From Betaproteobacteria bacterium (GTDB taxonomy: Bacteria; Pseudomonadota; Gammaproteobacteria; Burkholderiales; Gallionellaceae): a DNA stretch of 32,563 bases. A program made the position numbers and the translations under genes. Below, in pieces: positions 1,967 through 32,563 of this stretch. The stretch lies in contig JAIOPT010000077.1 of NCBI GenBank assembly GCA_021413765.1, forward strand, positions 1 through 32,563. The letters are read 5' to 3'. The number at the start of each line of letters is the position of its first letter. Positions within the stretch are counted from its first letter, which is position 1. The notes beneath the pieces are model-generated. The model saw only the letters and a program-made list of their open reading frames with translations, was not told the DNA's origin and did no database searches.

Positions 1967-1999
1967 GGGCCAGAGTGGGGGAAAGTGGGTTTTTGTGGG
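1965..1999 (+). promoter_or_regulatory. MraZ operator: four GTGGG repeats at 10-bp period
   Basis: GTGGG starts at 1965, 1975, 1985 and 1995, exactly one helical turn apart, each followed by 5 unrelated bases. Direct repeats of TGGG-N with 5-nt spacers are the published binding site of E. coli MraZ, which represses its own dcw operon. Placement between the -10 box and the mraZ start fits autorepression by steric block. Confidence 0.85.
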
Positions 2000-2022
2000 C
2001 AAGCAAGTACAGGGCTGCGATA

Positions 2023-16434: not shown

Positions 16435-17212
16435 GCCGGAGTCGTTACACATGATTTCCAACGCGCTGTTCGGCATTAGCTTCGTACTGGTTTTATATGG
16501 CGCGTTGCACTATGCGTTGCACATGCCCGTGTTTGCGCTACGCGTCGTATCTGTTAGTAATGCGCCGCGCCAGGTGGTTCCTGCTCAGATTGAGACTATG
16601 GTGCGCAAGGAATTGCGCGGTAATTTTTTCACTGTCGATCTGGAACGAACGCGGCGGGCTTTTGAGAGTATCCCCTGGGTGCGTAAAGTAAGCATACGGC
16701 GCCATTTCCCTTGGCGGCTGGAGATAGGCTTAGAAGAGCATGTAGCGCTGGCGCATTGGAACAACGCAGGGCTGGTGAATTCCCACGGCGAAGTGTTCTC
16801 GGCTGAGACGGACAAGCTATTGCCGAAATTCATCGGGCAGCCTGATGGCGCAGCCGAAGTAACCCAAATGTTTGCCGCATTGACTACTCAGCTTGCACCA
16901 CTTAAGCAGGAAATTACAGAAATCAGCTTATCTCCGCGCCGTTCCTGGCGGTTGCGCCTGAGCAACGGCATGCTGCTGGAATTGGGGCGCGAGCAGTCAA
17001 AGCAGCGCTTGGCGCGCTTTGTAGCGGTGTACCCATACAGCCTGGCGCCCATGCAACAAAATTATGAATTTTTTCATGCGGGAAAAGCACCGCATCAAAA
17101 TGGGCTGCAACGCAGGATAGAGTATGTGGATCTGCGTTATAGCAATGGCTTCGCCGCTTACCTGTCGGATACAGCAAACGGTCTTAGTATGGTCAAGAAA
17201 AAAACGATGTAG
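16424..17212 (+). CDS. ftsQ: Cell division protein FtsQ
   Basis: A 262-aa bitopic inner-membrane protein that recruits FtsL and FtsB and links early and late divisome proteins. It has a short cytoplasmic tail, a transmembrane segment at about 12-33 ([21 protein letters not shown]), a periplasmic POTRA domain around 37-106 (ALRVVSVSN...[17 protein letters not shown]), then the FtsQ/DivIB beta domain. The C-terminal [13 protein letters not shown] is typical. The ATG at 16424 has GGAG 7 bases upstream and overlaps ddl by 11 bases. This is the last gene of the tightly coupled part of the cluster; a 106-bp spacer follows. Confidence 0.94.
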
Positions 17213-17318
17213 GGCGAAGCCAAAAATTCCATAGCGAATTTATTTCATAATTAAACACATATTTTAGTATGGGCATCGTCCATACAACGTAAAAAAGTTT
17301 AGGCAGTGGAGAAATGCA

Positions 17319-18554: not shown

Positions 18555-18633
18555 TGGAGCAATTTCTAGCTGAGCACAACCAAGTGGATTATTAAGTATT
18601 TGATTTTATATTGTAAACAACAGGGAGAAAATA

Positions 18634-19791
18634 ATGTTTGAAATTGAGAATGTACAACTTCAGGACGCGGTAATTAAGGTTATCGGCGTGGGCGGCTGCG
18701 GCGGCAATGCAGTGGACCATATGATTGAGAAAGGCGTACAGGGTGTAGAGTTCATCGCCATTAATACAGATGCCCAAGCACTCAATCGCAACAAAGCGCG
18801 AACTCAGTTACAGATAGGCGCCACGATTACCAAAGGGTTAGGTGCGGGGGCAATTCCGGATGTTGGACGTGCTGCTGCCGAGGAAGATCGCGAGCGCATT
18901 GCCGCTTTGATCCAAGGTGCCAATATGATATTTATCACTGCAGGAATGGGCGGTGGCACGGGTACCGGCGCGGCACCCGTAGTAGCCCAGATAGCCAAGG
19001 AAATGGACATCCTCACCGTGGCCGTGGTGACCAAACCATTTCTTCACGAAGGCAAGCGCATGCGTTTAGCACAGGCTGGCATCGAGGCACTGTGCGAGTC
19101 TGTGGACTCACTCATCATCGTGCCAAATGAAAAGCTGATGACCGTACTGGGCGAAGACACTAGTTTACTGGATGCATTCAGCGCCTCCAATAGCGTGTTA
19201 CAAGGCGCAGTGGCAGGCATTGCCGAGGTAATTAATGTACCCGGTCTGATGAATGTAGACTTTGCCGATGTACGCACCCTTATGTCTGAAAACGGCATGG
19301 CGATGATGGGATCAGCTTCTGCTTCTGGATCTGATCGCGCTAAAGTTGCGGCAGAACGCGCCATGTCCAGCCCTTTGCTGGAGGATGTGAATTTAGCAGG
19401 CGCGCGCGGTGTGCTGATAAATATCAGCTCCAGTAGCAAGCTTACCCTGAGAGAATTCAGGGAAATTACCAACAGTGTGCAATTTGCCATTGAAGAGGCC
19501 ACCGTAATAGTTGGCTCTGTATTCGATGAGAGTATGGGTGACGAACTACGAGTGACCATTGTGGCAACTGGCTTGGGCTCGCCGCTGGAACGCAAGCAAG
19601 CCAAACCGGAACTTGTTTATGGGCAACGCACAGGCACGCATAACGAACCAATCTTCGCGGGCAATTATAAAGAGCTTGAAATGCCTGCAGTAATACGTAA
19701 TGGCCGTCACCGTGAAGCAGTCGAGGCGATGAAACAGTCCGGTGTAGATACACTAGACATTCCGTCCTTTCTGCGCAAACAAGCAGATTAA
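18634..19791 (+). CDS. ftsZ: Cell division GTPase FtsZ
   Basis: A 385-aa tubulin homologue that polymerises into the Z ring. Motifs: VIGVGGCGGNAVDHM near the N terminus, the tubulin signature G106-G-G-T-G-T-G112, NEKLMTVLGEDTSLLDAF (the T7 loop lies near NVDFADVRTLMSENG), and the C-terminal peptide DIPSFLRKQAD that docks FtsA and other tethers. The ATG follows AGGGAG, 7 bases away. The 79-bp spacer after ftsA is AT-rich (TATATT around 18607-18612) and may hold a further promoter, as is common before ftsZ. Confidence 0.98.
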   Translation: MFEIENVQLQDAVIKVIGVGGCGGNAVDHMIEKGVQGVEFIAINTDAQALNRNKARTQLQIGATITKGLGAGAIPDVGRAAAEEDRERIAALIQGANMIFITAGMGGGTGTGAAPVVAQIAKEMDILTVAVVTKPFLHEGKRMRLAQAGIEALCESVDSLIIVPNEKLMTVLGEDTSLLDAFSASNSVLQGAVAGIAEVINVPGLMNVDFADVRTLMSENGMAMMGSASASGSDRAKVAAERAMSSPLLEDVNLAGARGVLINISSSSKLTLREFREITNSVQFAIEEATVIVGSVFDESMGDELRVTIVATGLGSPLERKQAKPELVYGQRTGTHNEPIFAGNYKELEMPAVIRNGRHREAVEAMKQSGVDTLDIPSFLRKQAD

Positions 19792-19845
19792 GCCGCTATA
19801 GGAGCGTGAACATTCCACCCTATAAACCGGTGCCAGAATGAACTA

Positions 19846-19854
19846 TGTTAAAAT
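19846..19854 (+). promoter_or_regulatory. Possible extended -10 promoter upstream of lpxC
   Basis: TGTTAAAAT forms an extended -10 (TG-N-TAAAAT) 30 bases before the lpxC ATG, in the 93-bp spacer after ftsZ. No clear -35 hexamer sits 17 bp upstream, which extended -10 promoters can tolerate. It would allow lpxC expression independent of the division genes. Confidence 0.4.
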
Positions 19855-19884
19855 TTTAAATTATTTATGAATTTTTAAAGCAAC

Positions 19885-20796
19885 ATGGTTAAACAACGCA
19901 CATTAAAAAATTCGGTGCATGCTACTGGGGTAGGGCTGCATACAGGTGAGCGGGTTACGCTTACCTTGTCTCCTGCACCGGCAAACAGTGGCATTGTATT
20001 CCGCCGGGTGGATGTTGTGCCTGTGGTGGTGATACGCGCTGAAGCACATGCAGTGCATGATACCCGCTTGTCCACCTGCCTTGAAATAAACGGCACGCGT
20101 ATAGCTACTATTGAGCACCTAATGTCCGCATTTGCCGGGCTTGGCGTGGACAATGCTTTTGTTGACTTGTCTAGCGCAGAAGTGCCAATAATGGACGGTA
20201 GCGCTGGAACATTTATTTTCCTATTGCAATCTGCAGGCATCATCGAACAGTCTGCTGCAAAGAAATTCATTCGCATAAAAAAAATCATAGAGATCAAGGA
20301 TGGTGATAAGTGGGTACGCTTCGAACCATTCAACGGCTACAAACTTAGCTTTACTATTAATTTTTCCCATCCTGTATTTGCCTCTACCAAGCAGAACGTG
20401 ACGATAGATCTGGGGGAGCATTCTTACATCAAGGAAGTAAGCCGAGCCCGCACCTTCGGCTTCATGCATGACGTTGAGAATATGCGAGCTCAGGGATTGG
20501 CGCTGGGTGGCAATCTAGACAATGCCATCGTGATGGATGAATACCGCATCATCAACCCAGATGGATTGCGCTTTGAGGACGAGTTCGTCAAGCACAAAAT
20601 ACTGGACGCCATTGGCGACCTATATTTGCTCGGACATCCGCTGATCGGCGCATTCTCTGGTTATAAATCCGGCCATGCTCTGAACAATGCTTTGCTACGT
20701 ATTTTGCTTGCTGATGAACACGCGTGGGAATTCGTGACTTTCAACAAGACTGAGGAAGCGCCTGCATTCCTGCGCTTACAATTACAGACTGCCTGA
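19885..20796 (+). CDS. lpxC: UDP-3-O-acyl-N-acetylglucosamine deacetylase LpxC
   Basis: A 303-aa zinc amidase that carries out the committed step of lipid A synthesis in the cytoplasm. Zinc ligands are H78 in TIEHLMSA and H237/D241 in [10 protein letters not shown]. The catalytic general acid H264 is in KSGHALNN. The N-terminal TGVGLHTGE and the substrate-loop ARTFGFM are typical. Length is normal (E. coli has 305). It closes the dcw cluster and shows that the cell has an outer membrane with lipid A. The stop lies inside a 7-bp hairpin. Confidence 0.98.
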
Positions 20797-22251: not shown

Positions 22252-22285
22252 AAGCACGGCCATATATGGCCGTGCTTTCGTTATT
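22252..22285 (+). terminator. Intrinsic terminator after the 36-aa gene
   Basis: A perfect GC-rich palindrome at 22252-22277 (arms AAGCACGGCCAT / ATGGCCGTGCTT) followed by TTTCGTTATT. It should end transcription of the microprotein gene. It lies only 33 bases before the next start codon. Confidence 0.7.
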
Positions 22286-22310
22286 AAAGCATCACACCCA
22301 CACTTCCCCC

Positions 22311-22829
22311 ATGCATTTAAACAACTCTGAATTCCCCCACTTAATTAAATTCTTGGTGGTTTCCACAATTTCTTTTTTTTTCGGTGCAATGCATGGCATG
22401 TTGCAGGTGATTCCATCCATACGAGCTTGGCTGGATTCTATCGGCAGCCCTTACGGTGGCCCTGGGCACATGATAGATCCCTTGGCACATGCACACATAA
22501 ACTTAATCGGAGGGCTAGTAATACTGGCAATGGGAACCATGTATTATTTGCTGCCCATAATTAGCGGAAAAGCAATTTACTCTCTGCGCTTGATAAACCA
22601 TTCATTCTGGTGGACAACTATCGGGGTGTTTTATTTTTATACTACGCAAGTGGTATTTGGCATCCTGGAAGGAAATTTATTGCTAGAGAATAACCTGCAG
22701 GCTATGGCACAAGTGCACCGCTATTATGGACCCATCGTAGCCAGCGCAGGAATGACCATGGCGACGGGTTTTTGCATCTATCTTGCTAACGTCTTATTCA
22801 CCCTTAAAAATAAAGACCGGAATCTTTAA
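22311..22829 (+). CDS. Stand-alone protein resembling the C-terminal quarter of a CcoN/NorB-type heme-copper oxidase subunit I
   Basis: A 172-aa membrane protein with four predicted helices (about 13-34, 61-82, 99-120, 139-163). The second helix opens with AHAHINLIGG, in which H60-x-H62 matches the H-x-H of subunit I helix X that holds the low-spin and high-spin hemes. The text continues GTMYYLLP...SLRLINHSFWWTTIG, like CcoN. The copper-ligand histidines and the first two thirds of a catalytic subunit are missing, so it cannot be a normal oxidase. ATG at 22311 is preferred. An ATG at 22266 lies inside the terminator palindrome, and neither has a clear ribosome site. It may be a heme-binding or assembly protein. 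Confidence 0.7.
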   Translation: MHLNNSEFPHLIKFLVVSTISFFFGAMHGMLQVIPSIRAWLDSIGSPYGGPGHMIDPLAHAHINLIGGLVILAMGTMYYLLPIISGKAIYSLRLINHSFWWTTIGVFYFYTTQVVFGILEGNLLLENNLQAMAQVHRYYGPIVASAGMTMATGFCIYLANVLFTLKNKDRNL

Positions 22830-22842
22830 GAACTGTTTATTG

Positions 22843-23271
22843 CTAGAGCGATAAATTCAACGGGAAGCGCAGAACTCCTTCAGCGCCGTTGCGCTTTATC
22901 TGCACCTGTAATACGGATCTGGTGCCCGGAGCAACTTTCGCTGCCCTGCGGTAAACACCCACCTCCCCATCTTGTATTGCCTGTATCCATTGATCTTGGT
23001 CGTCAGTACGGATCGAAACCATAATGTCATGGATCGGTCCACGTTCACCAGTCACTATCACCAAAAACTCGGTTACTCCAGGACGCGGTGGACTGGGCCT
23101 GGATTCAACTCGTACCTCCGCACCTTGCCATTTTTGCGGTTGGGTATCAGCAACTTGGTCTCTGCCGCATGCTACTAGCAGAACCAATAAAAGCAGCTTA
23201 GTATATTTAACACATGTTCTCCACAGTCGGTGAACTAGGGTATGAAAATTATTTTTCTGCTTTGAGTTCAT
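22843..23271 (-). CDS. Predicted lipoprotein, last gene of the CcoG-like operon
   Basis: A 142-aa protein with a positively charged N terminus, a hydrophobic segment (LLLLVLLVAC) and a lipobox LVAC giving a lipidated Cys35. The mature part looks beta-rich (AEVRVESRPSPPRPGVTEFLVIVTGERGPIHDIMVSIRT). The position after ccoG matches that of ccoH/fixH in canonical clusters, and the beta-rich extracytoplasmic fold would also suit FixH-like proteins, but I see no diagnostic motif. I chose the ATG at 23269-23271. A GTG at 23311-23313 would add 14 residues. It overlaps the preceding gene by 23 bases. Confidence 0.7.
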   Translation of the reverse strand: MNSKQKNNFHTLVHRLWRTCVKYTKLLLLVLLVACGRDQVADTQPQKWQGAEVRVESRPSPPRPGVTEFLVIVTGERGPIHDIMVSIRTDDQDQWIQAIQDGEVGVYRRAAKVAPGTRSVLQVQIKRNGAEGVLRFPLNLSL

Positions 23272-23680
23272 GTGATTGATCTTTATTATTCTTATCTGAA
23301 TCCAGCGTGCCACCTATCGATGATCCATATAGATTAACCATGAAACGAACAAAAGCGCTTCCGGCAGCAACATAAAACAAAGCTATGATGAACCCCCAGT
23401 CCACCCAAGGTCGCTCATCACCCGGACGAAGACCCCAAAAAGGAAAACTCAAACCCACCGCAACCAGTAACACTGCAACAGTCACTCCTATAAACCAATA
23501 GGGTATGCTTTTTTGTGACTCCGGAATGGTTTCTACCAACTCCCAATCTTCAAGTCCACGTTTGGCCATACGTTCTTCATCAGAAGCATAGCCAAAATGG
23601 TCTTCCGGCTTCTCACCCCAGCGCGGCTCATCTACTTTCGATAAGCCTTGAGCTTTTTCATCAATATCGCTGGCTATCAT
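23249..23680 (-). CDS. Two-helix membrane protein with PFWGLRP / PWVDWGFIIALFY signature
   Basis: A 143-aa protein with an acidic cytoplasmic-type N terminus (about 58 residues), a transmembrane segment at 60-80, the short loop PFWGLRPGDERPWVDWGF, a second helix at 95-115, and a polar tail. The loop motif P80-x-W-G-x-R-P86 and P91-W-x-D-x-G-F recur in the 221-aa protein at 31525-32190, so the two are probably related. It starts with a strong AAAGGAG and overlaps ccoG by 4 bases, so co-translation with the CcoG-like protein is likely. No known family name. Perhaps an oxidase accessory subunit. Confidence 0.8.
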   Translation of the reverse strand: MIASDIDEKAQGLSKVDEPRWGEKPEDHFGYASDEERMAKRGLEDWELVETIPESQKSIPYWFIGVTVAVLLVAVGLSFPFWGLRPGDERPWVDWGFIIALFYVAAGSAFVRFMVNLYGSSIGGTLDSDKNNKDQSHELKAEK

Positions 23681-25017
23681 AGTTTTCTCCTTTGTTCGGA
23701 AAAATGTTGAACAGGGAATCGCCCCATCCAGGTATCACCTGCGGTGACTTCCACCACAACAGAATATAAGCCTCGTGGCAAATCCTGCGCGATGGAAAGC
23801 ATAAGCGACTCTCGCCCGACCGGGGATAATTTAATGTCCTTAGCGCTAAGCTGGTAACTACCCGGCGGCAAACCTAACACACGCACATGTAGCTCCGCTG
23901 AGTGATACAGTTTATTGGAAAGCGCAATGCGATATTTTTGTACCGTGTGACCTTGCTGGATATCCGCATTGCCCACTGCTACATGATAAGGTTGATATGA
24001 CCACAATCCCCAAATAAACATCGCCGCACCCATTACTACGAAAGGGGTCGTCCAACCCATTCGGGCAAACAAAGAAATTGCGATGCCACGAAATTTATTT
24101 ACATTTTTATTCGTGCGCTCAAGCATATTAAAACGTAATAGCCCAGGGACTCCTTGCTTTTTATGCAAGCGATTGCAAGCATCAACGCAATCGCCGCAAT
24201 TGATACAACTGTCATAAATATCGGTTTTGCGCGGATCCAGATCGATAAAACAAGAAGTGACGCAATAATTACACTTGGCGCATTCATCGCTGCGACTGGC
24301 ATCGTATGCTATATGCAAAGTTTGCTTGGTTTTAAACGAATGCATCCAAACCCTGTAAATGCAGGCGTAGCGGCACCAAAAATGTCTAATTAACGCAATG
24401 TCTATGAAAATGATCACGACACATACCGCGTAAATCCAATGCAGTGATCCCGCCAACTTGGCATTTTCTTGAAATATTACGAAAGACCATACCACACTTG
24501 GCTGATAGAAATAAAATAATGGGATTAGCGCAAAAAACATAGCCACCCCCAAAAATGCAACCCCTAGCAGCGTCCAATTCATGATCTTATTCTTGGCACC
24601 CGCCACGCGCGGCGCTTCGCCGGTTAAACTTACATCGGCATGCTTGCCTAATAGTTTATGCGTAAGATTGTTAGCCCACTCGGCCATAGTATTCTGAGGA
24701 CAAGCCCAACCGCAAAACACAGTACCTGCTGTCGAGTACAACAACACCAAACTACTCGCCAAAAAAAGCCATGCCCCGGTTACCAAGGAAAAATCAGCCA
24801 GCCAGACCTGCCTATCCAGCACAACAAAGGCTGCCGCACTCGGATCAATACGGAATAGGCCGCTAGCCGGAATAAGTACCACAAGGATCAAGACCAACAT
24901 CTGTACCAACCGGCGCTTCCAACGGAATTCGGAATGGACTGACTTGGAACCTATGGCCGTGCCGATAACCTTTACCGGGATACTGGAAATGGATTTATAT
25001 TTGACGCCGCTGGCCAT
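23677..25017 (-). CDS. ccoG: CcoG/FixG-like polyferredoxin, cbb3 oxidase maturation
   Basis: A 446-aa inner-membrane protein. CcoG family proteins reduce copper for the CuB site of cbb3 oxidases. It has helices at about 37-55 and 77-97, the FCGWACPQ motif (C102, C106), further helices at 148-172 and 195-212, then WCRYAC. Two 4Fe-4S sites follow: C246-x2-C-x2-C-x3-C256 and C271-x2-C-x2-C-x3-C281. A helix lies near 325-341 and a C-terminal immunoglobulin-like domain after it (YRIALSNKLYHSAELHVRVLG). The Cys ending the first site is followed by Phe instead of the usual Pro. It lies 7 bases after the spermidine-synthase-like gene. It could serve another metalloenzyme, but the neighbours favour an oxidase. 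Confidence 0.9.
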   Translation of the reverse strand: MASGVKYKSISSIPVKVIGTAIGSKSVHSEFRWKRRLVQMLVLILVVLIPASGLFRIDPSAAAFVVLDRQVWLADFSLVTGAWLFLASSLVLLYSTAGTVFCGWACPQNTMAEWANNLTHKLLGKHADVSLTGEAPRVAGAKNKIMNWTLLGVAFLGVAMFFALIPLFYFYQPSVVWSFVIFQENAKLAGSLHWIYAVCVVIIFIDIALIRHFWCRYACIYRVWMHSFKTKQTLHIAYDASRSDECAKCNYCVTSCFIDLDPRKTDIYDSCINCGDCVDACNRLHKKQGVPGLLRFNMLERTNKNVNKFRGIAISLFARMGWTTPFVVMGAAMFIWGLWSYQPYHVAVGNADIQQGHTVQKYRIALSNKLYHSAELHVRVLGLPPGSYQLSAKDIKLSPVGRESLMLSIAQDLPRGLYSVVVEVTAGDTWMGRFPVQHFSEQRRKL

Positions 25018-25024
25018 AATTTAG

Positions 25025-27640
25025 TTAGTTTCCTGTCGCATTTGCTTCACGATCAAGCGGGCTCAGCTCCAGCAAGTGCACACGGCTCAATTCCGCGTGT
25101 GCATCACCAGTGTTACGCTCAATTCGCCACAATGCACGCACTGCTTCTACGTGATATGGATTAAGACGCAAAATTTTCTGCAACGCCTCTTTGTCACTCA
25201 AACCATGCTCACGAGCCTGCGCTAAAGATGAAAACATATTATCAGCCAACGCATAAGCAATCCAGCGATCTTTTGCATTCGCCTTATAAGCCAAGTGCGT
25301 CAGCTGGTTAGCCTGTTGCGTTGCGCCACGCGCGGCCGCAAGCCAGCTACGCGTCATCAGCTCGCTTGCTACGTAGGCGCGTTCAAAAGTCTCTTTATCA
25401 TTGTCACGAATGCCCAGCAAATTTGCAGCGGCTTCCATTTTCGGCCTGGTTTTCAGCAAAAACTGTAATAACTTTGCCACATCTAATTCACCAGCGTAGC
25501 GCGCGCGGGGCAGTCGAAACTCAATCACTGGCGACCACTCGTCTTGTACTTGTTCCCGACTAGCCGGCAATGGCCCCCAATAGCGTCCCAGCCATGTCCA
25601 CCCCCCCTCGCCTCCAGTCGCCTCTTCCTGTTGCCCCAATGGCATACGCTGCAGATTATGCAGCAACCCCTGCGCGCCTATAAACTTCTGCCGTGGCCCA
25701 ACTAAGGCTAAATGCATTCCATCAAGGAATATTTGCGCATCTGGAAAAGTCTGCCGAAAGCTGTTAAAAATCACATTTAACGATTTATTGTCGAATTGAT
25801 TGAGCGCCAACCACTGAACAAATAATCCGTTTTCGCTTAGGCGATTACGCACTCGCTGAAATTGCTGCACTGATAATAAAGAACTTGACCCTGCCAAATC
25901 CGGATGAAACACGTCGCCGATTATGACATCGTATTGATCCCGACTCGCGCTTAGGAAATGCCGCACGTCGTCACGTTCCACTTTTGTTTGACGCAGAACG
26001 TTGCGATTTAATGGAGCAAACCAGCTCGCTGCGGAATTAATCGCGCCTTGTGACAATTCAACAGCACTACGCGCTAAATCAGGAAACGCCAGAGAGCCAG
26101 CCACAGAAATTCCGGTGCCCAATCCAAGAAATAGTACTGAGCGAGGCTGTTCATGCAATAGCAATGGTAGCCGCGCTTGATTGGACTGCACGAACACCGC
26201 TGTAGGATCAGTTGAAGCATCCATTCTCTGCAAATCGGTCAGCAACACACGCTGCCCGTCTTGCTGCTCCACCACATGAGTCATCGAAATGGCGTCTTCG
26301 TAAAAATATAAATCCCTGCTTCCCGCTTGCGCCTGCGGCAATAGCATATTGACTGGCGGTAATTTTACAACTGGCCATGCTGCCATTAAAAAAAGCGGTA
26401 CAGCAAGCCATGCGGTACGCGACTGTGCCCAAGTTAAACCCAGGATCAACAATGCCGCAGCCGCCACCACCACCGTAGCAGCACTGCCCCAAACCGGAAT
26501 CAGTACCACCCCTGCAACTACCGCGCCGAGAGCAGCACCCAGTGAATTAGCTCCGTATAACCATACCCCACCGCCATTCGAACGGCTGTTTAACAAAGGC
26601 AACCAGGCTCCGAGTGCCAGTGTAACCGGCAGAGTTACCAGCGCGAGCAATAACCCTTGCATTCTCAATGCTTGAAATAAAGAAGCAAACTCAGCTCGCT
26701 CCACCCATGCCGAAAGTGCTGGCAGCAACCATAGACTTAATACGGTAAATCCTCCGGCAGCAATGGGCAAGATTACAAACCACGCCTGCCTGTGCTGACG
26801 TGGCGCGATCAAGCTGCCTATACCGATGCCCAACAGAAATGACGCCAGAATCACTGTCAGCACATACTCGGTGCGTAGCATCACCATACCGAATAATCGC
26901 GTCCACGCTATTTGCAAGGTCAGACTTGCCGCACCGATCCCGGCATAGGCAAACAGAAAAGCTAAACGTGGTCGACTTACCCTAATGCTTTTCTCAGTAA
27001 CCTGCGCTGCGGTGTATCGCGATGAAAGCAGCAACAGCGCAACAACTCCCAAACAACCAATCACGGCAACCACTCTGACCGCCGAGACCCAACCCATGGC
27101 AGGCAGCAACCAAAGTGGTAACAATGCGCCACAAGCAGCACCTAGCGTATTTAAACCGTAAATCTTCCCCAGCTGCTCCGGCTTATTCCCCAGGGATGCT
27201 AAAATCAACGGAAACCCTGCCCCCATGATGAAAGCCGGGAACAATAGCAAACACAATGCAACGCTAGCAATAAGACCGTACCATTGAAACAGCGAAAGTT
27301 GAGCCGCCGCGCCTTCCATTCCCGCCGATGTCATTTGCAGAATCAGAGGCAGGAGTAGGGCGTAAACAGCAATACCACCTTCCAATGCAGCCAATAACAA
27401 CAACGGCCTTTTGATTTGGATAGCCCGGCGTACCGCAAATAAGCTTCCCGCTCCCAATCCCCCCATAAATGCGGCAACAGTCAGCACCACCGCAAAAATA
27501 CTCACACCAAATTGCAAAGAAAGTATGCGCGCCCACAATACCTCGTATGCCACGCTAGTCAGACCGAATAATCCATACAGTGCTGCCAGCGGCCAATAAC
27601 TGCGCTTTGAGATTAATGATTGTGACTCTTTCACCAGCAT
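25025..27640 (-). CDS. Fused polytopic membrane / spermidine synthase-like protein
   Basis: An 871-aa protein. Residues about 15-425 form a long series of transmembrane helices with two similar halves (GLTSVAYEVLWARILSLQFG near 26 and LTLQIAWTRLFGMVM near 240). Residues about 440-675 form a spermidine synthase-like Rossmann domain with the nucleotide loop G506-L-G-T-G510 and DVIIGDVFHPDLAG. Residues 740-871 are helical, repeat-like. Fused MFS/spermidine synthase-like proteins of this layout are common, but polyamine synthesis has not been shown for most. The catalytic acids of true spermidine synthases are not clearly conserved here. ATG at 27638-27640 has AAGG 7 bases upstream. First large gene of the operon with ccoG. 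Confidence 0.85.
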   Translation of the reverse strand: MLVKESQSLISKRSYWPLAALYGLFGLTSVAYEVLWARILSLQFGVSIFAVVLTVAAFMGGLGAGSLFAVRRAIQIKRPLLLLAALEGGIAVYALLLPLILQMTSAGMEGAAAQLSLFQWYGLIASVALCLLLFPAFIMGAGFPLILASLGNKPEQLGKIYGLNTLGAACGALLPLWLLPAMGWVSAVRVVAVIGCLGVVALLLLSSRYTAAQVTEKSIRVSRPRLAFLFAYAGIGAASLTLQIAWTRLFGMVMLRTEYVLTVILASFLLGIGIGSLIAPRQHRQAWFVILPIAAGGFTVLSLWLLPALSAWVERAEFASLFQALRMQGLLLALVTLPVTLALGAWLPLLNSRSNGGGVWLYGANSLGAALGAVVAGVVLIPVWGSAATVVVAAAALLILGLTWAQSRTAWLAVPLFLMAAWPVVKLPPVNMLLPQAQAGSRDLYFYEDAISMTHVVEQQDGQRVLLTDLQRMDASTDPTAVFVQSNQARLPLLLHEQPRSVLFLGLGTGISVAGSLAFPDLARSAVELSQGAINSAASWFAPLNRNVLRQTKVERDDVRHFLSASRDQYDVIIGDVFHPDLAGSSSLLSVQQFQRVRNRLSENGLFVQWLALNQFDNKSLNVIFNSFRQTFPDAQIFLDGMHLALVGPRQKFIGAQGLLHNLQRMPLGQQEEATGGEGGWTWLGRYWGPLPASREQVQDEWSPVIEFRLPRARYAGELDVAKLLQFLLKTRPKMEAAANLLGIRDNDKETFERAYVASELMTRSWLAAARGATQQANQLTHLAYKANAKDRWIAYALADNMFSSLAQAREHGLSDKEALQKILRLNPYHVEAVRALWRIERNTGDAHAELSRVHLLELSPLDREANATGN

Positions 27641-27822
27641 GGCCGAACCTTAATATGCAGTAATATAATTAAAACAAATGCCGGTAACAGCGCAAGAATG
27701 TGTAATTCAAATTTGTTAGGCAACAACTTAGTATTATCTACAAAAAATGACTTTATCCAGCTAAGCCGGGCGAGAATGCAATCTACTATCGCAACAAATT
27801 TATCGAAGAACCAGCTAGACAA
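27631..27822 (-). CDS. Possible 63-aa leader membrane protein
   Basis: An open frame starting with TTG at 27820-27822, ending in TGA that overlaps the next gene start by 10 bases (CCATGCTGGTGA). The translated C-terminal half holds one good transmembrane helix (LHILALLPAFVLIILLHI) and a basic end. Such overlap is usual for real gene pairs here, but there is no ATG and no ribosome site before the TTG. It may be a small membrane protein or simply the 5' leader of the operon. Confidence 0.35.
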   Translation of the reverse strand: MSSWFFDKFVAIVDCILARLSWIKSFFVDNTKLLPNKFELHILALLPAFVLIILLHIKVRPCW

Positions 27823-27883
27823 TTAGTGGAAGCGGGACAGAGGCATCGTTCAATACGCACAAGCGCAGCGCTAAAACGAACCA

Positions 27884-27889
27884 TAAATA
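27884..27889 (-). promoter_or_regulatory. -10 element of an FNR-dependent class II promoter
   Basis: TATTTA on the minus strand, exactly 22 bp downstream of the FNR box edge. This puts the box centre at -41.5 relative to a start near 27877, the standard class II geometry. The hexamer is only a moderate match to TATAAT, as expected for an activator-dependent promoter. Confidence 0.6.
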
Positions 27890-27911
27890 TCGAAGCATGA
27901 CAAGTGCTTCA

Positions 27912-27925
27912 TTGATTTTTATCAA
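27912..27925 (-). promoter_or_regulatory. Perfect FNR/ANR/FixK-type operator
   Basis: TTGAT-N4-ATCAA, the full consensus palindrome for FNR family regulators, which respond to low oxygen. It lies in the only large gap of the respiratory region, upstream of the spermidine-synthase-like/ccoG operon. cbb3-type oxidase genes and ccoGHIS are classical targets of these regulators. Confidence 0.85.
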
Positions 27926-27984
27926 GCAACAAATACAGGGCTAAGCGTCGACAATCATAAAAGCTATATCGTTCTATAATTATA

Positions 27985-28374
27985 TTAAAAGGGGTAAAAC
28001 CAAATAATGCCCACAATAGCGTGTACAAAAGCTAGCGTGATAGTTAACCCGGCAGAAACCATATGCCACACAAATACTTGCTTACCATAAATTCCCATAG
28101 CGATACCCAGCGCCCCAGTAATTAGAAGCATGATTAACAATGGCACGCCCAATAAAAACATAGTCAAATGCTTTTTTTGGATAGTTGAGGGCCTATCTAT
28201 TTTAATCTGGCTGGCCTGCTTTTCAAATGCCTCCATCACTTTAGCGCTATCGCCCTTCTGACTGTTATCATCAGCTCGCGCAGTTGGTATAGCACAAAAT
28301 ATAAATATCACCGATGCAATCAGCCAGTACACTATTAATTTTAGGTAGAAGTCACCCCTTACACTCGCCATCAT
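27985..28374 (-). CDS. Small membrane protein with H-x13-H helix, possible heme b binder
   Basis: A 129-aa protein. It has an N-terminal signal-like helix (about 12-30, cleavage possible after ARA at 33), a short hydrophilic segment, then two helices at about 73-95 and 99-124. H69 lies at the start of the first of these. H104 and H118 are 14 residues apart in the last helix (WHMVSAGLTITLAFVHAIVG). That spacing is what b-type cytochromes use to hold two stacked hemes from one helix. It ends in WFYPF. Start ATG overlaps the preceding stop (ATGA). Last gene of the seven-gene operon. Heme binding is inference from spacing only. Confidence 0.8.
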   Translation of the reverse strand: MMASVRGDFYLKLIVYWLIASVIFIFCAIPTARADDNSQKGDSAKVMEAFEKQASQIKIDRPSTIQKKHLTMFLLGVPLLIMLLITGALGIAMGIYGKQVFVWHMVSAGLTITLAFVHAIVGIIWFYPF

Positions 28375-28625
28375 TTCTCACTCTCAACTGAAATTGCCTG
28401 CTGCTCTTTCGGATCAGTTTTACTTTCCGCGTAGTGCCATGTCAACACCGCTATCAGAATAAAGGGAACAAAAATAACACCCAGCAGGAATAAAAAAATA
28501 AACCAGAGCGTATCAATATGCACGTGAAGAAAACGGTAGCTATCTACTGCATAGCTACTTTTTATCGAAGACAATGAGAAACCAAGGGCCATTCCCAAAT
28601 ACCGCAAGACTTTAAGCGCTTTCAC
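28371..28625 (-). CDS. Small single-helix membrane protein
   Basis: An 84-aa protein with a basic, hydrophobic N terminus resembling a signal peptide (possible end at SYA, residue 26), the segment YRFLHVHIDTLW, one strong transmembrane helix (about 41-63), and a polar tail rich in K and E. Histidines H34, H36 and H64 lie near the two membrane faces. The start is GTG, overlapping the SUMF1 gene stop as GTGA, and the end overlaps the next gene by 4 bases. Position and topology suggest a subunit or assembly factor of the same complex. No family recognised. Confidence 0.75.
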   Translation of the reverse strand: MKALKVLRYLGMALGFSLSSIKSSYAVDSYRFLHVHIDTLWFIFLFLLGVIFVPFILIAVLTWHYAESKTDPKEQQAISVESEK

Positions 28626-29686
28626 CGCCTTTTATCCTTTTCCCCGGGATTACTTGCACAGCGGAATCCAAAAAAATCGGAGGCATAGTTTGCAAAAGCG
28701 AAATTTCGATGAAATACTGAAGATGAGAATGGATCCCCCTTCCATGAGCCACCACGCAATACCTTGTATTTCCCCCCAGTCGGCACAAGCTCAACCTCTT
28801 TTGTATTTGTCGCCTGCACAATTTTTCCTTTAAACAAATCTGACGGCGCGTCAGATCCTGGATAAGGCGCAAAATCATCCGCCGTCCACTCATTCACATT
28901 ACCCGCCATGTCCATTACTCCATAGGGGCTAACGCCATTTGGATATGCATTCACGTTGGTTGTCGAACCCACGTTGTAATAAGTATTCAACCGCTCCGGC
29001 TCCATCTTGTTACCCCACGGCCAGCGCCGACCATCTGTTCCACGCCCGGACTTTTCCCATTCCGCTTCAGAAGGGAGTCGCTTTCCTGCCCACTTAGCAT
29101 AAGCCGCTGCATCATACCAAGAGACCATAGTAACGGGGCGCAACGCTTCGCCTGAAGGAATTTTTCCATTTTTCCAGTTGAGCGGCGGACGGTGTGAAGT
29201 AGCGACTACAAATTTGGCATATTGCGCATTAGTTACAGGATATTTATCTACCCAGAAGGCGGGTATTTTAACTGTATGCTGAGGACGATTTTGTACATCT
29301 GCACGTTCTAAATCTGTACCCATCGAAAAAGCTCCCTCAGGAACCAAGACCATACTCTCTACTTCGAGCCAATCCTCTTTGGAGAGCAAGCTTTCAATTT
29401 CTTTAGCGCTATATCCTACCGCATGTTTTTTCTCTGCTTCATGCACACTATGCAATACTAAATCCTCACCAGCAGCGCGGATATGGGATGATTCATCCTT
29501 CAATTCGTAGGTTGCGCGTGTGCGCATTTCTCCCATACGATCAAACCCCTGATTCACTACATACAAGGTAATCCCAATTGCTAACAAGACAAAGCAAATT
29601 ACAAAGGTAGCCGATAAGTAACGTTTACGACGCGCATAATCTGTATTAGGAAGCACAGTTTTTCTGTTAGCAGAAGTAACTGTCAT
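28622..29686 (-). CDS. Membrane-anchored SUMF1 / formylglycine-generating-enzyme-like protein
   Basis: A 354-aa protein with a transmembrane anchor at about 24-46, a helical stalk to about 110, and a complete SUMF1-type domain at 112-345. Family text includes VPEGAFSMGTD, KYPVTNAQYAKFV, PVTMVSWYDAAAYAKWAGKRLPSEAEWE, YGVMDMAGNVNEW and VLRGGSW ending GFRC. The fold serves sulfatase activation in true FGE, but here only one cysteine (C343) is present in the domain, so copper-dependent FGE chemistry is unlikely. NirV, encoded beside the nitrite reductase gene nirK, is a SUMF1-type protein in a respiratory setting. AAGGTGA lies 7 bases before the ATG. The gene abuts the preceding stop directly. 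The domain should face the periplasm. Confidence 0.88.
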   Translation of the reverse strand: MTVTSANRKTVLPNTDYARRKRYLSATFVICFVLLAIGITLYVVNQGFDRMGEMRTRATYELKDESSHIRAAGEDLVLHSVHEAEKKHAVGYSAKEIESLLSKEDWLEVESMVLVPEGAFSMGTDLERADVQNRPQHTVKIPAFWVDKYPVTNAQYAKFVVATSHRPPLNWKNGKIPSGEALRPVTMVSWYDAAAYAKWAGKRLPSEAEWEKSGRGTDGRRWPWGNKMEPERLNTYYNVGSTTNVNAYPNGVSPYGVMDMAGNVNEWTADDFAPYPGSDAPSDLFKGKIVQATNTKEVELVPTGGKYKVLRGGSWKGDPFSSSVFHRNFAFANYASDFFGFRCASNPGEKDKRR

Positions 29687-30157
29687 CTATATATCACCTT
29701 CGTTATTACTGGTATGTTGCTTATATAAAATATCTCGCGAACTTCTCCCGTATGTTCCTTTAACCATGATTTCACCCATGACCCCGCCGAAGGCTGCCGA
29801 AGTCATTACTACAGTCACATACAAAGCCCACATGCCAAATGGCATTATCGACGAATCTTCCGGAACTGCATTTCCATAGAGACTTTCCAAGTAACCAATC
29901 GATTTAACTATCAGTGGCGGGAAGTAACACAGCCATTTACCGCCAAGTCCAAAAATAACTGCAACCAATACACCGACGAAAAAAGGTATAACCAACATAT
30001 CGATGACCCACAGGCCATTGAAGTCAAGAATGCCGCGAAATAACTCGATTTTTACTCCAAGTAAGCGGTCGCCAAAGTAATTCAGCGCACAACCCATGAT
30101 AACTGCCACCACCCCGTTGATAAATCGGGCTCTGGTCAAAGGAGACAATTTACTCAT
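29687..30157 (-). CDS. Three-helix membrane protein of unknown function
   Basis: A 156-aa protein with predicted helices at about 12-29, 50-73 and 106-131 and a basic C-terminal tail (GTYGRSSRDILYKQH). There are no cysteine pairs or histidine pairs typical of cofactor binding. The start overlaps the cytochrome gene stop by 4 bases, and its own stop directly touches the SUMF1 gene start. I do not recognise the family. Its place between a cytochrome c and a SUMF1 protein suggests a membrane subunit or assembly factor of the oxidase-like complex. Confidence 0.8.
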   Translation of the reverse strand: MSKLSPLTRARFINGVVAVIMGCALNYFGDRLLGVKIELFRGILDFNGLWVIDMLVIPFFVGVLVAVIFGLGGKWLCYFPPLIVKSIGYLESLYGNAVPEDSSIMPFGMWALYVTVVMTSAAFGGVMGEIMVKGTYGRSSRDILYKQHTSNNEGDI

Positions 30158-30642
30158 GGGCGATACTCTTTACCAGTAAGAATTTCTTGTTCGGCTTTAC
30201 GCGTTTCTTCGAGATACCAGTCTTGTACCTTCAGGCTTGCCATATAGCGCGCCAGAAGTCGCCGTTCACTTTCAGGCAGATGCGCATACGATCGCATTTG
30301 ATATTCTTTCTTTAAGCGAGATGGCAATATTGCCTGAGGATTTGTAGCTGAGAAATACTGGTAAAACCACTCTTCACTTCGCAAGGATCCCATGCCATCT
30401 AATATCGGAGTAGGTACGGCTTTTATAAGATCACGCACCGTCCACAATGAATGGCAGCTTTTACAATTTTGCTGGCGATATATATCCATAGCAGCGCGTT
30501 CCAAAGTAGCAGATGCGGTGCTGTAATAAGGAATACCTTTATCGACTTCATGAATCGTATTGAGCCGCCATAGATTGCGCCCCATAAATCCTACTACCAC
30601 AACTGCAATTACTACAAAAACAATTTTTTCGCCTAGTTTCAT
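30154..30642 (-). CDS. Membrane-anchored monoheme cytochrome c, CcoO-like
   Basis: A 162-aa protein with one N-terminal transmembrane anchor (about 7-21) and a periplasmic c-type heme domain with C60-K-S-C63-H64. The following text LRSEEWFYQYFSATNPQAILPS and YQMRSYAHLPESERRLLARYMASLKV lines up with the CcoO pattern (R-x-x-EW, NP, P-S, M-x-x-Y-x-x-L, L-x-x-Y-x-x-x-L). M116 is the likely sixth heme ligand. It is shorter than CcoO (usually about 200 or more). It overlaps the CcoS-like gene by 4 bases. Probably an electron-donor subunit next to the main CcoO-like protein encoded at the window edge. Confidence 0.88.
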   Translation of the reverse strand: MKLGEKIVFVVIAVVVVGFMGRNLWRLNTIHEVDKGIPYYSTASATLERAAMDIYRQQNCKSCHSLWTVRDLIKAVPTPILDGMGSLRSEEWFYQYFSATNPQAILPSRLKKEYQMRSYAHLPESERRLLARYMASLKVQDWYLEETRKAEQEILTGKEYRP

Positions 30643-30917
30643 TGGTCCTGCTGCTTTTCATTTTCCTGACGCTTTAAAACACGCTCCCGGCTTTGCATCT
30701 GTGCGGCATTAACCTCCCGACTTTTTGCATATTCTTGAGGTGACATTTTTTCTCTATCGCCTTCATCAAATACTAGATACTTGATATCTTCATCGAACTG
30801 CTCATTTTTCAGTCCCCATCTAATCCAATAAATAACAGCAAGAATTATCATCCCTCCAACAACAAGCCAAAGATAAATAGACCATCCATCATCTAACGAT
30901 TGCAAGTAGCTTTCCAT
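30639..30917 (-). CDS. ccoS: CcoS/FixS-like protein with extended C terminus
   Basis: A 92-aa protein with one transmembrane helix at about 16-33 followed by WGLKNEQFDEDIKYLVFDEGD. CcoS proteins have a single helix followed by W-x-x-x-x-G-Q-F-D-D-x-E and a short L-x-D-D/E end, so the match is good although the Gly is Glu here. CcoS is needed for cofactor insertion into cbb3 oxidases. Usual CcoS is 50-70 residues. This one has about 35 extra charged residues (MSPQEYAKSREVNAAQMQSR). It overlaps the cytochrome gene by 4 bases and lies 42 bases after the 106-aa gene. Confidence 0.65.
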   Translation of the reverse strand: MESYLQSLDDGWSIYLWLVVGGMIILAVIYWIRWGLKNEQFDEDIKYLVFDEGDREKMSPQEYAKSREVNAAQMQSRERVLKRQENEKQQDQ

Positions 30918-30959
30918 ATTTTCTCCGTCGGTCGTTAGGTAACCATCCTTGTGGATAAT

Positions 30960-31280
30960 CTAGAATAGATTTCCGCCCAGCATTTGTAATCCGCCAAAAA
31001 TGACTGCAACTATAATGCCTGTAATTATCAAGCCAAACATCACTTTCTCGCCAGTTCTCATTTTTTTTGGCGCGTGGTTTCCGAACATCACCATATAAAC
31101 GATCCCAGAAAACACCACTACGCCCAACAACATGAAAAAAAACACACCCGTGCTAAATTGCTGACTGCGCATCCCTTCTATGCTTAAATCTAATTTTGGT
31201 GAATTAGCTGTGTTAGATAGCACATTAAAGACTGTGCCGGCATTTAATCCATCAAGAAAGGAATAAATAATAACCTCCAT
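30960..31280 (-). CDS. Two-helix membrane protein of unknown function
   Basis: A 106-aa protein with a polar N-terminal part (about 40 residues), helices at about 44-66 and 80-100, and a loop FGNHAPKKMRTGEKV between them. No cofactor motif apart from a lone histidine in the loop. ATG at 31278-31280 is the first possible start, as an in-frame TGA precedes it directly. A ribosome site AAGGA lies rather far (about 14 bases). It opens the seven-gene operon just after a terminator-like hairpin. Confidence 0.7.
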   Translation of the reverse strand: MEVIIYSFLDGLNAGTVFNVLSNTANSPKLDLSIEGMRSQQFSTGVFFFMLLGVVVFSGIVYMVMFGNHAPKKMRTGEKVMFGLIITGIIVAVIFGGLQMLGGNLF

Positions 31281-31301
31281 TCATTCCAAATGAATCCTTG
31301 T

Positions 31302-31332
31302 AAAAAAGATTATGCCGCCCGTACGGCGGCAT
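31302..31332 (-). terminator. Intrinsic terminator or attenuator inside the respiratory locus
   Basis: On the minus strand an 8-bp GC-rich stem (ATGCCGCC / GGCGGCAT, loop of 5) is followed by AATCTTTTTT. This is a strong rho-independent terminator placed after the 44-aa gene and 22 bases before the ATG of the next gene. Confidence 0.8.
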
Positions 31333-31362
31333 ACCTTGTTCATTTAGCTTGCGACAGCAACG

Positions 31363-31497
31363 CTAGCTATTTTTCGACCTTATTTGAGGACTTTTCTTAT
31401 CATAATTATCCACAAAGAAACTATAGAAAAAAGGCGCAAAAAAACCTATTGAAACGACCACCGCAAAGCATATTGGTCCATAATCCAAATCTATCAT
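31363..31497 (-). CDS. 44-aa single-helix membrane microprotein
   Basis: An ATG at 31495-31497 has GGAGG 6 bases upstream, one of the best ribosome sites in this region. The product begins MIDLDYGPICFAVVVSIGFF, continues with a second short hydrophobic-aromatic stretch (APFFYSFFV) and ends in a basic polar tail, DNYDKKSPQIRSKNS. It lies 27 bases after the 221-aa gene and just before the terminator. The position after the CcoO-like gene suggests a CcoQ-like small subunit, but there is no sequence proof. It was found by reading the minus strand directly. Confidence 0.7.
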   Translation of the reverse strand: MIDLDYGPICFAVVVSIGFFAPFFYSFFVDNYDKKSPQIRSKNS

Positions 31498-31524
31498 CTG
31501 ATGCCTCCGTAATATAATTTTAAA

Positions 31525-32190
31525 TTAAGCGTTATGTCGTCTATCACCGTGGCGTGGATCAGCGTCATGATGACGTGGCTGCCAATGGTATGGAGGTAAC
31601 CGCTTCACAGTAATTGTTACACCAAGAAAAAACATCGTAAGATAAAACAAATCAATCGTAAATCCTTTATCCCACCAAGGCTGCTGACGTTCTCGCTTAC
31701 CATTAGACTTAAAATTACCTTCAAAATTGGCAATTTTCACCTGCGGCCCTACAACGGTGTAATCCTTAAGATCCACAGCTGGAAGCTTCATAACTTCCTC
31801 TATTTGTGGCTTCAGCACGCGCAAATCGTCCATACTCACCGGATGTCTACCTTGCTGGGCTTTGAATGGACTGTCTTTATTAATTTCAACAATACGTTTC
31901 ATTGCTGCATCATCACCCTGCGCTTCTTGTATCGACTGGATTTCAGGCGTATCCATAGCCTTAATATAGTCAACGTAGATCGCAGCTGTTGGACGCTGTC
32001 CCCAGAGAGGGATCGTAGTCAGGAAAGCTGTTGCAATCGTTAACGCGACAAGAATAACGACAGGAACCGGCAAACGGTTGTTATCCTCCGTCATCCCTCC
32101 AAGATCTTCAGCTTCCCAAAGAGCTTTGCTTCGTTCACCAGTCTCTGCGTGCGTCAAAGTAACCAACGGCTGATCAAATACCCAAGGCAT
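31525..32190 (-). CDS. Two-helix membrane protein with large periplasmic-type insert, paralogue of the 143-aa protein
   Basis: A 221-aa protein with a polar N terminus, a transmembrane segment at about 42-62, the motif P61-L-W-G-Q-R-P67, a hydrophilic domain of about 100 residues (68-170), P171-W-W-D-K-G-F-T-I-D-L-F-Y183, a second helix at 178-195, and a histidine-rich tail (YHWQPRHHDADPRHGDRRHNA is unusual and could bind metal). The same two motifs sit side by side in the 143-aa protein at 23249-23680. A GGGGGA ribosome site is 5 bases before the ATG, 16 bases after the CcoO-like stop. It occupies the place of CcoQ/CcoP, yet has no CxxCH. No family recognised. Confidence 0.8.
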   Translation of the reverse strand: MPWVFDQPLVTLTHAETGERSKALWEAEDLGGMTEDNNRLPVPVVILVALTIATAFLTTIPLWGQRPTAAIYVDYIKAMDTPEIQSIQEAQGDDAAMKRIVEINKDSPFKAQQGRHPVSMDDLRVLKPQIEEVMKLPAVDLKDYTVVGPQVKIANFEGNFKSNGKRERQQPWWDKGFTIDLFYLTMFFLGVTITVKRLPPYHWQPRHHDADPRHGDRRHNA

Positions 32191-32206
32191 ATCGTTCCCC
32201 CTTAAA

Positions 32207-32563
32207 TTATTTCAGATTTATTACAAAATCAATCAAGTTCCGAATTTCGCTATCCTTAGCGTACATGGGCACATCTGGAGGAGTAGTGATTTTACCTTCC
32301 CGATACTCATCGTACTCAGAACGCCATTTTTTGAAATCAATTTTTTTGCCATCAGCGTCGACTTCACCCCATAAGTAATCAAAACGAGGCATGATGGAAT
32401 GCGGTTGCACTAAACGCGGATTAAAGAAATGTAGCATCATCCACTCTCTAGAGGCATTGCGTGAGCCAACATGCAACAAATCCGGTCCTTTACGGTCAGA
32501 CCCAAATGCTGTTGGCGATTCGCCATTGAAATCACCTAACATAGGAGGGGCGCCAAACACTTG
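32207..32563 (-). CDS. ccoO: CcoO-like cytochrome c subunit of a cbb3-type oxidase, C-terminal part only
   Basis: The visible 118 residues run off the right edge, so the start and the CxxCH heme motif are outside the window. The text KGPDLLHVGSR-x-ASREWMMLHFFNPRLVQPHSIMPRFDYL matches the CcoO/FixO pattern G-x-DL-x-x-VG-x-R-x-x-x-x-W-x-x-x-H-x-x-NP-x-x-V-x-P-x-S-x-MP-x-x-x-x-L. The Met of SIMP is the distal heme ligand. CcoO passes electrons from CcoP or soluble cytochromes to the CcoN catalytic site. A long charged insert (DADGKKIDFKKWRSEYDEYREGK) follows. The ATG at 32558-32560 is internal, because the frame continues to the edge. Confidence 0.85.
   Translation of the reverse strand, partial: QVFGAPPMLGDFNGESPTAFGSDRKGPDLLHVGSRNASREWMMLHFFNPRLVQPHSIMPRFDYLWGEVDADGKKIDFKKWRSEYDEYREGKITTPPDVPMYAKDSEIRNLIDFVINLK

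Follow-up and report, generated by a model that had tools for sequence, protein, structure and literature searches.

A probable distal-type cbb3 oxidase gene cluster from a Gallionellaceae bacterium in which CcoP seems reduced to its membrane anchor

Introduction

Two forms of the cbb3-type (C-family) heme-copper oxidases, distal and proximal, have been distinguished (Ducluzeau et al. 2008, as cited in PMC8788666, PMC7029218, PMC10734462). The proximal form is the canonical one, encoded by ccoNOQP together with ccoGHIS. In the accessible parts of the citing papers, distal cbb3 is reported in Sideroxydans, Zetaproteobacteria, and Gallionellaceae, and a Cyc1-type cytochrome is reported beside a Sideroxydans cbb3 cluster (PMC8788666, PMC7029218, PMC10734462). 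Here we describe a C-family oxidase gene cluster on a 32,563-nucleotide contig of a Gallionellaceae bacterium (JAIOPT010000077.1, assembly GCA_021413765.1; the whole stretch is called the window) and compare it with these systems.

Other described systems also come close. In 'Ferrovum' JA12, only subunits I and II were found, and co-localised cytochromes were proposed as a substitute (PMC4725956). In 'Ca. Tenderia electrophaga', the Cyc1 region is syntenic with that of Mariprofundus and includes a polyferredoxin and hypothetical genes (PMC5371394). The accessible parts of these two papers contain no residue, anchor, or operon analysis.

The cluster shares with canonical cbb3 the metal sites, the catalytic tyrosine, a mono-heme CcoO, a CcoG-like and a weakly CcoS-like gene, and a FixP_N-like anchor. 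It differs in that searches detected neither a CcoP with heme and FixP_N nor CcoH nor the N-terminal domain of CcoI, that Ser240, Tyr317, Tyr237, and Glu323 of CcoN are replaced, that CcoO carries an insertion of roughly 110-125 amino acids (aa), and that about ten or more extra genes are present. With the published distal branch it has in common a C-family CcoN and CcoO and a subunit make-up unlike the proximal form.

Results

The window (contig C39) comes from a genome of 2.53 Mb, 86% complete and in 172 contigs. The closest named relative of its w221 protein, described below, is 'Ca. Nitrotoga' (L062, 95% identity), and "the genus" in all counts means the window's genus, treated as 'Ca. Nitrotoga'. 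The window carries the downstream half of a cluster of about 20 genes, and the upstream half lies on another contig of the same genome (C79), together with the start of ccoN, which encodes the N-terminal 160 aa of CcoN. In a close relative (L027), both contigs map to a single continuous cluster, with ~1.6 kb between C39 and C79 missing. In order of transcription, an upstream module of cytc259, cytO198, halfN170, a thioredoxin-like lipoprotein gene, and c149 is followed by c89, ccoN (469 aa), ccoO (320 aa), w221, w106, w92, cyt162, and w156b, and then by a SUMF1-like gene, w84, w129, a fused MFS/spermidine-synthase-like gene, a CcoG-like gene, w143, w156a, and the convergent halfN187. In the upstream module, cytO198 is a membrane cytochrome with one heme and halfN170 a CcoN-like protein with four helices. 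Extra small genes are present in some loci. An earlier note, made from the window's letters, had placed the cluster at 22843..32563; it also includes the convergent gene at 22266-22829 (plus strand) and continues upstream on C79. The gene content given there was recovered: CcoO-, CcoS-, and CcoG-like genes lie on the minus strand together with an extra cytochrome, a SUMF1 protein, and a spermidine-synthase-like protein, the CcoS-like match being weak, and the 4-base overlaps it described occur at 5 of the 12 junctions among the 13 minus-strand window genes.

The arrangement was compared across 56 loci, the window among them, each 19 kb or longer; 52 are distinct. Where stretches end at about 10 kb, genes are lost through truncation. 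The arrangement goes beyond chance: the run ccoO-w221-w106-w92-cyt162 was found in 56/56 loci, and the rest of the order was mostly kept. All 52 distinct loci contained w221, w106, w92, cyt162, the SUMF1-like gene, w129, the gene for the 871-aa fused protein, and ccoO, and 51 contained ccoN and c89, which were absent only at the window end. As the loci were picked by the presence of w221, its own count is no test. The upstream module was present in 31-33 of the 52. Among the order variants, w156a and halfN187 lay upstream of c89 in several loci, w84 and w129 were swapped in one, and locus L078 was without genes beyond that for the 871-aa protein. Co-occurrence across genomes, which the earlier note had named as a check, was found of w221 with w129 and the SUMF1 gene in every distinct locus, with w156b in 50/52, and with w156a in 49/52. 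The case that the note had named as refuting, a complete canonical ccoNOQP directly upstream and related loci lacking the small genes, did not turn up.

The gene after ccoO, w221 (31525..32190, minus strand), encodes a protein with a FixP_N-like anchor helix, a loop of ~115 aa, and a second helix, and without a heme motif. Ahead of the first helix stands E35-x-N37-N38-x-[LMV]-P41 (E35-x-N-N-x-[LMV]-P), in which E35, N37, and P41 are invariant in 69/69 w221 sequences and N38 is kept in at least 90%. Helix 2 of canonical CcoP is preceded mostly by E-x-N-N-P-L-P, where the E, both P, and the first of the two N are kept in 16/16 sequences. We take the conserved glutamate of this motif to be the channel-entry glutamate of CcoP. 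Aligned by hhalign with the CcoP N-terminus, w221 gave 82.5% and E 9.8e-6 over 49 columns. A profile of the CcoP N-terminus, built from 16 canonical CcoP and searched against the 10,764 open reading frames (ORFs) of the collected loci, gave 55 matches at E<=10, namely 46 of the 89 w221 and 9 w143, and none else. For individual w221 sequences the signal is thus weak, but it is specific. In a control profile-profile comparison, w221 reached E 7e-6, and the other 16 cluster families did not exceed 34.3% probability (w84, E 4e-4). Furthermore, in genome G095 a short ccoO is directly followed by the gene for a 114-aa protein scoring 26.2 bits against FixP_N (cut-off 24.9) and matching the w221 profile too. 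On these comparisons, the first helix of w221 resembles the FixP_N anchor of CcoP. The earlier proposal that new subunits replace CcoP therefore stands in part: CcoP was undetected, but w221 is not simply new.

The layout of the operon sets w221 apart from the genes that follow. The gap after w221 measured 158-555 bases in 85/85 loci (median 258; four duplicate loci left out). In the window it comprises 244 bases and contains a terminator-like hairpin with a T run (31311..31333, minus strand), which may act as an attenuator that sets the core genes off from the auxiliary ones. Such a hairpin and T run were found in this gap in 50 of the 85 loci, against 5.5 expected from mononucleotide shuffles. 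The ccoN-ccoO and ccoO-w221 gaps have medians of 28 and 15 bases, and no hairpin was found in them; in most loci they are too short for one. We read the hairpin-marked gap as the end of a core transcript, ccoN-ccoO-w221, followed by more weakly expressed auxiliary genes, and the gap suggests that CcoN, CcoO, and w221 form the core of the enzyme. The cytochrome gene cyt162 lies beyond the hairpin, which counts against cyt162 as a stoichiometric subunit.

As the earlier note had stated, neither CcoP nor the CcoI copper ATPase is visible in the window, and this holds beyond it. The search covered 14 genus genomes, of which 13 are near-complete and two of these single-contig. FixP_N, the CcoI N-terminal domain (PF12156), and FixH/CcoH (PF05751) were each found in 0/14. 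FixP_N was likewise found in none of four further w221 carriers (G081, G082, G096, and G112), and it is present in 25 of 56 genomes of the class; another carrier, G069, has FixP_N as well. PF12156 was absent from the same four carriers and present in 11 of 12 genomes with canonical cbb3. PF05751 was detected in 8 of 10 canonical genomes, and among the four carriers only G096 gave a FixH match, below the cut-off. Copper ATPases of the general TIGR01511 kind occur in 14/14 genus genomes, so copper export itself need not be missing. In one single-contig genus genome, a copper ATPase match (G006:C1:2371622-2373429) is broken by TGA. The cytc259 protein, encoded at the cluster head on C79, is a diheme cytochrome c whose best NCBIfam model is ccoP, at 47.8 bits against a cut-off of 179.95; FixP_N did not match it, and only an N-terminal signal-like helix was seen.

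PF00115 gave exactly three matches in each of the 13 near-complete genus genomes, corresponding to ccoN and the two half proteins, and the same three in the window's own genome, where ccoN is cut. This indicates that the distal-type CcoN enzyme is the only heme-copper oxidase of the genus (bd oxidases were not searched). In the accessible part of one survey, bd oxidases are reported in 15.4% of nitrite-oxidizing Gallionellaceae (PMC10734462).

We then compared 89 distal-type CcoN, comprising 81 from clusters (76 distinct) and 8 from other genomes (two identical), with 22 canonical CcoN, using Pseudomonas stutzeri CcoN (3mk7) for position numbers. The window's own CcoN is truncated by contig ends, and the ligand result rests on the relatives and on the N-terminal 160 aa on C79. 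H60, H207, H257, H258, H345, H347, and Y251 were kept in 89/89 (with one X at H60) and in 22/22 canonical sequences. These residues cover the ligands of heme b, heme b3, and CuB, and the helix-VII catalytic tyrosine is retained with them, which bears out the earlier assignment to the C-family. All 89 sequences, and 0/22 canonical ones, carry Ser240->Gly, Tyr317->Ala, Tyr237->His, and Glu323->Gln (Pseudomonas numbering); S240, Y317, Y237, and E323 are present in 22/22 canonical CcoN. Position 241 is His in 89/89, compared with I or V in 22/22. The substituted stretches align to the adjacent ligands without gaps. We take S240 and Y317 to be the Ser and Tyr of the K-channel of C-type enzymes. NorB is not known to have an active-site Tyr, a residue that is present in 89/89 distal-type CcoN. 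In a quick CcoN tree of 57 rows, with 25 of the 81 cluster sequences used, the distal CcoN fall on one side of a branch with 99 Shimodaira-Hasegawa-like approximate likelihood ratio test (SH-aLRT) support and the canonical CcoN on one side of another with 100. This separate clade (SH-aLRT 99) occurs in organisms named for distal cbb3. In the accessible part of one source, the K-channel of C-type oxidases is built from the active-site Tyr, one Ser, and one further Tyr, and the active-site Tyr is tabulated as a property of oxidase types (PMC3084760).

The window's ccoO is represented by its 3' part (118 aa; 32207..32563, minus strand; PF02433 FixO, 49.6 bits), as it is cut by the contig end, so its heme motif falls outside the window. 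Full-length relatives (L026 and L027) have 320 aa, one CXXCH heme c motif, and roughly 110-125 extra aa before the heme domain. The motif C188-x-x-C191-H192 is present in at least 95% of 86 sequences, and the L027 protein was confirmed as a mono-heme FixO/CcoO (PF02433, 65.9 bits; cut-off 29.6).

A third C-family variant was observed at L208:2061-4886 and L209:2540-5452. Like the distal-type enzyme, it has a divergent CcoN with Glu323->Gln and a CcoP-like protein with one anchor helix, and its CcoO is mono-heme. It differs in keeping Tyr317, Ser240, and Tyr237, so that its channel residues are normal, and in having one heme on the CcoP-like protein (FixP_N 22.5 bits in L209, no match in L208). 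The Glu323 exchange occurs here with the channel residues intact, which shows that the two changes are separable.

The cluster was also found outside the window's genus, so that it is not lineage-specific as first supposed. At class level, the w221 profile matched 36 of 369 genomes: 32 strongly (own included), one as a fragment, one as an intermediate, and two probably by chance. In a phylum-wide sample, it matched 44 of 398: 40 strongly (own included), one in two fragments, and three as weak or fragment matches only. A search of relatives gave w221 in 21 of 61 genomes, including 15 of 19 of the genus (own included). A scan of named genomes confirmed 152 relatives; Nitrotoga fabula, Gallionella, Sideroxydans, Ferrovum myxofaciens, and Chromatiaceae are among the best 80. 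Without our own, the phylum-level carriers number 43, and 39 of these belong to one family, which we take to be Zetaproteobacteria because distal cbb3 is reported there in the accessible part of PMC7029218. Carriers of the cluster thus belong to Gallionellaceae, Ferrovum, Chromatiaceae, and other gammaproteobacteria, with Zetaproteobacteria as a probable addition. The 114-aa intermediate of G095 belongs to a smaller relative of the cluster (L172, G095:C157:404-7624), with a halfN187-like gene, a distal-like CcoN, a short 173-aa CcoO, the FixP_N/w221 intermediate, two one-heme cytochromes, and a thioredoxin-like protein; this genome additionally has a canonical CcoN.

The remaining window genes of the cluster are mostly small and, except for the last, on the minus strand. 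Their presence is given as the number of distinct loci. Downstream of the hairpin lie w106 (30960..31280; 52/52), a two-helix membrane protein with a GEK motif and no family above cut-off, and w92 (30639..30917; 52/52), a one-helix CcoS/FixS-like protein (PF03597 FixS, E 0.006, 16.7 bits; cut-off 23.1). The protein cyt162 (30154..30642; 52/52), a relative of CcoO, is a cytochrome c with one heme and a membrane anchor (PF00034 22.5 bits; PF02433 23.2 bits, under the cut-off), and its heme motif C60-x-x-C63-H64 is present in 8/8 sequences. A GEK motif right before a membrane helix is common to cytO198 (L004:5162-5758), cyt162, and w106, the last being without a heme motif. Next come w156b (29687..30157; 50/52), a small integral membrane protein with no family matched, and a SUMF1/FGE-fold protein with an N-terminal membrane helix (28622..29686; PF03781, 191 bits; 52/52). 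They are followed by w84 (28371..28625; 51/52), with one helix and conserved D28, Y30, R31, and H34, and by w129 (27985..28374; 52/52), a membrane protein whose H104 and H118 are conserved in 7/7 and in at least 95% of 78 sequences. The fused MFS/spermidine-synthase-like protein of 871 aa (25025..27640; 52/52) scores 92.1 bits against NF037959 (cut-off 40), and the CcoG-like membrane ferredoxin (23677..25017; 50/52) scores 111.8 bits against TIGR02745, below the cut-off of 316.7. The two-helix w143 (23249..23680; 50/52) is a paralog of w221 (hhalign, E 1.6e-6).

The last minus-strand gene, w156a (22843..23313; 49/52), encodes a predicted periplasmic lipoprotein and candidate assembly factor. 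Its Cys49, conserved in at least 95% of 67 sequences, looks like a lipobox cysteine, and the listed GTG start is probably too early. This corrects the earlier note, as w156a looks like a lipoprotein and not like one of the small membrane proteins. Convergent to it, halfN187 (22266..22829, plus strand; 45/52) encodes a four-helix CcoN-like protein with H75-A-H77 (PF00115 37.3 bits, over the cut-off), and most close relatives start at its residue 16. Its predicted model has a predicted local distance difference test (pLDDT) score of 84.6, and the best PDB matches are cbb3 CcoN.

A 489-aa membrane protein with weak PMT_2 similarity (L004:1293-2762) is inverted within the cluster, and it lies in or near the cluster in 31/52 loci. 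Elsewhere in the window, an RNase P RNA gene (RF00010, 308 bits) lies at 1284-1636, and a dcw-type cell division and cell wall cluster at 1975-20796, with names from ORF reading and lpxC last, adjoins the oxidase cluster.

Discussion

Our results are probably best explained by a distal-type C-family branch that serves as the sole heme-copper O2 reductase, with w221 in place of the CcoP anchor and an altered channel. The cluster is a real, well-conserved variant of a known enzyme family, probably of a known clade, and not categorically new; very probably, that clade is the 'distal cbb3' of the literature. Both the clade and the absence of subunit III had been published before. The accessible accounts of the distal branch are without w221, the channel substitutions, the half-CcoN proteins, or the operon layout, and the 2008 paper may say more. 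In the open-licence full-text literature, neither the w221-CcoP link nor the channel exchanges nor the operon layout was found described; most of the subscription literature, including the 2008 paper, is outside this scope. As far as could be searched, therefore, the identity of the anchor, the channel substitutions, and the operon layout are new.

Several observations weigh against this explanation. The match to the distal clade of Ducluzeau et al. was made by description, not by sequence comparison, and the composition of the complex is predicted from the genes. The hairpin was found in 50 of 85 loci, not in all, and the c89-ccoN gap (median 217) also has one in 13/76 loci against 4.2 expected. 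Among the four genus genomes lacking w221, two are 91% and 97% complete. The CcoP link spans about 50 aligned residues, and just 46 of the 89 w221 were matched by the CcoP profile at E<=10, with 17 at E<=0.01 and a best value of 2.7e-4. The FixP_N score of the L114 ortholog (21.6 bits, E 1.7e-4) is under the cut-off of 24.9, the window's own w221 has no Pfam match at E 0.1, and the predicted model of w221 matches no PDB fold.

These weak single-sequence scores, together with the lack of a solved-fold match, would also fit a w221 without CcoP ancestry. The motif and helix would then be convergent at the membrane entry, and cyt162, a membrane-anchored c-type cytochrome in 52/52 loci, would alone replace both the anchor and the heme of CcoP. 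The JA12 account likewise proposed a co-localised cytochrome c as a substitute for subunit III (PMC4725956). However, the CcoP profile picked out only w221 and w143 among all ORFs searched, the other cluster families stayed far below w221 in the profile-profile control, and the intermediate that exceeds the FixP_N cut-off sits in the same position after ccoO. In addition, cyt162 lies past the terminator-like gap, a position that disfavours a stoichiometric role in electron entry. We therefore regard convergence as unlikely, and in this cbb3 branch the membrane anchor of CcoP alone seems to remain.

An ordinary cbb3 with CcoP, CcoI, and CcoH encoded elsewhere and missed in an incomplete assembly is a good deal less credible. 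The window's genome is indeed fragmentary, general copper ATPases are present throughout the genus, and Campylobacter jejuni scatters ccoGHIS according to the accessible part of PMC8267372. However, none of the three proteins was found in the 13 near-complete relatives, two of them single-contig, and the same models detect them in most canonical genomes. Moreover, CcoN of L027 scored 228.9 bits against the TIGR00780 equivalog, far from its cut-off of 583.15. A nitric oxide reductase or other non-O2 enzyme resembling cbb3, as the Glu323->Gln exchange, the loss of the usual channel residues, and NorB as the sole non-cbb3 protein among six PDB sequences matched by CcoN might suggest, is the least probable of all, given the catalytic Tyr and three CuB His in 89/89, scores of 215 bits for cbb3 CcoN vs 27 for NorB, and the absence of any other heme-copper oxidase in the near-complete genus genomes, which belong to known aerobic nitrite oxidizers.

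For the distal-type enzyme with a w221 anchor, we propose the following scheme. The core enzyme, CcoN-CcoO-w221, would be made at a higher level, since a terminator-like hairpin separates its genes from the rest. Electrons from nitrite may reach CcoO via the soluble diheme cytc259, which we equate with the Cyc1-like protein described in the literature, or via the membrane one-heme cyt162, and would then pass from heme c to heme b and the heme b3-CuB site to O2. At the cytoplasmic mouth of the proton channel, w221 would replace the CcoP anchor. The Ser/Tyr channel of CcoN would be replaced by Gly239, Ala316, His236, His240, and Asn320, and as the usual channel is replaced, protons may take a different, His-rich route. 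In place of CcoI and CcoH, assembly and copper insertion could rely on the CcoS-like, CcoG-like, and SUMF1-like proteins, the lipoprotein, and the small membrane proteins. As for the two four-helix CcoN-like proteins, each is probably a membrane protein that binds heme b and acts together with the one-heme cytochromes. In Vibrio cholerae, the two CcoP helices reportedly suffice for assembly of the enzyme.

More broadly, and only tentatively, the cluster may define a class of proton-translocating O2 reductases that is widespread among lithotrophs, in which the Ser/Tyr channel is swapped for a His-rich one, CcoP is reduced to a heme-free anchor, and a second redox module, encoded in the same cluster, is formed by CcoO-like cytochromes and two stand-alone four-helix CcoN-like proteins, each similar to one third of subunit I. 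Should proton pumping be retained, the enzyme would be a C-family pump independent of residues now held essential. Its natural residue exchanges offer a ready test of which residues a C-family proton pump needs. For structural studies, the conserved gene set supplies a list of subunits. The energy available to nitrite and iron oxidizers is small, and Nitrotoga has no other heme-copper oxidase. If the enzyme departs from cbb3 in its proton channel and electron entry, figures for energy yield and O2 affinity taken over from canonical cbb3 may not hold for these organisms.

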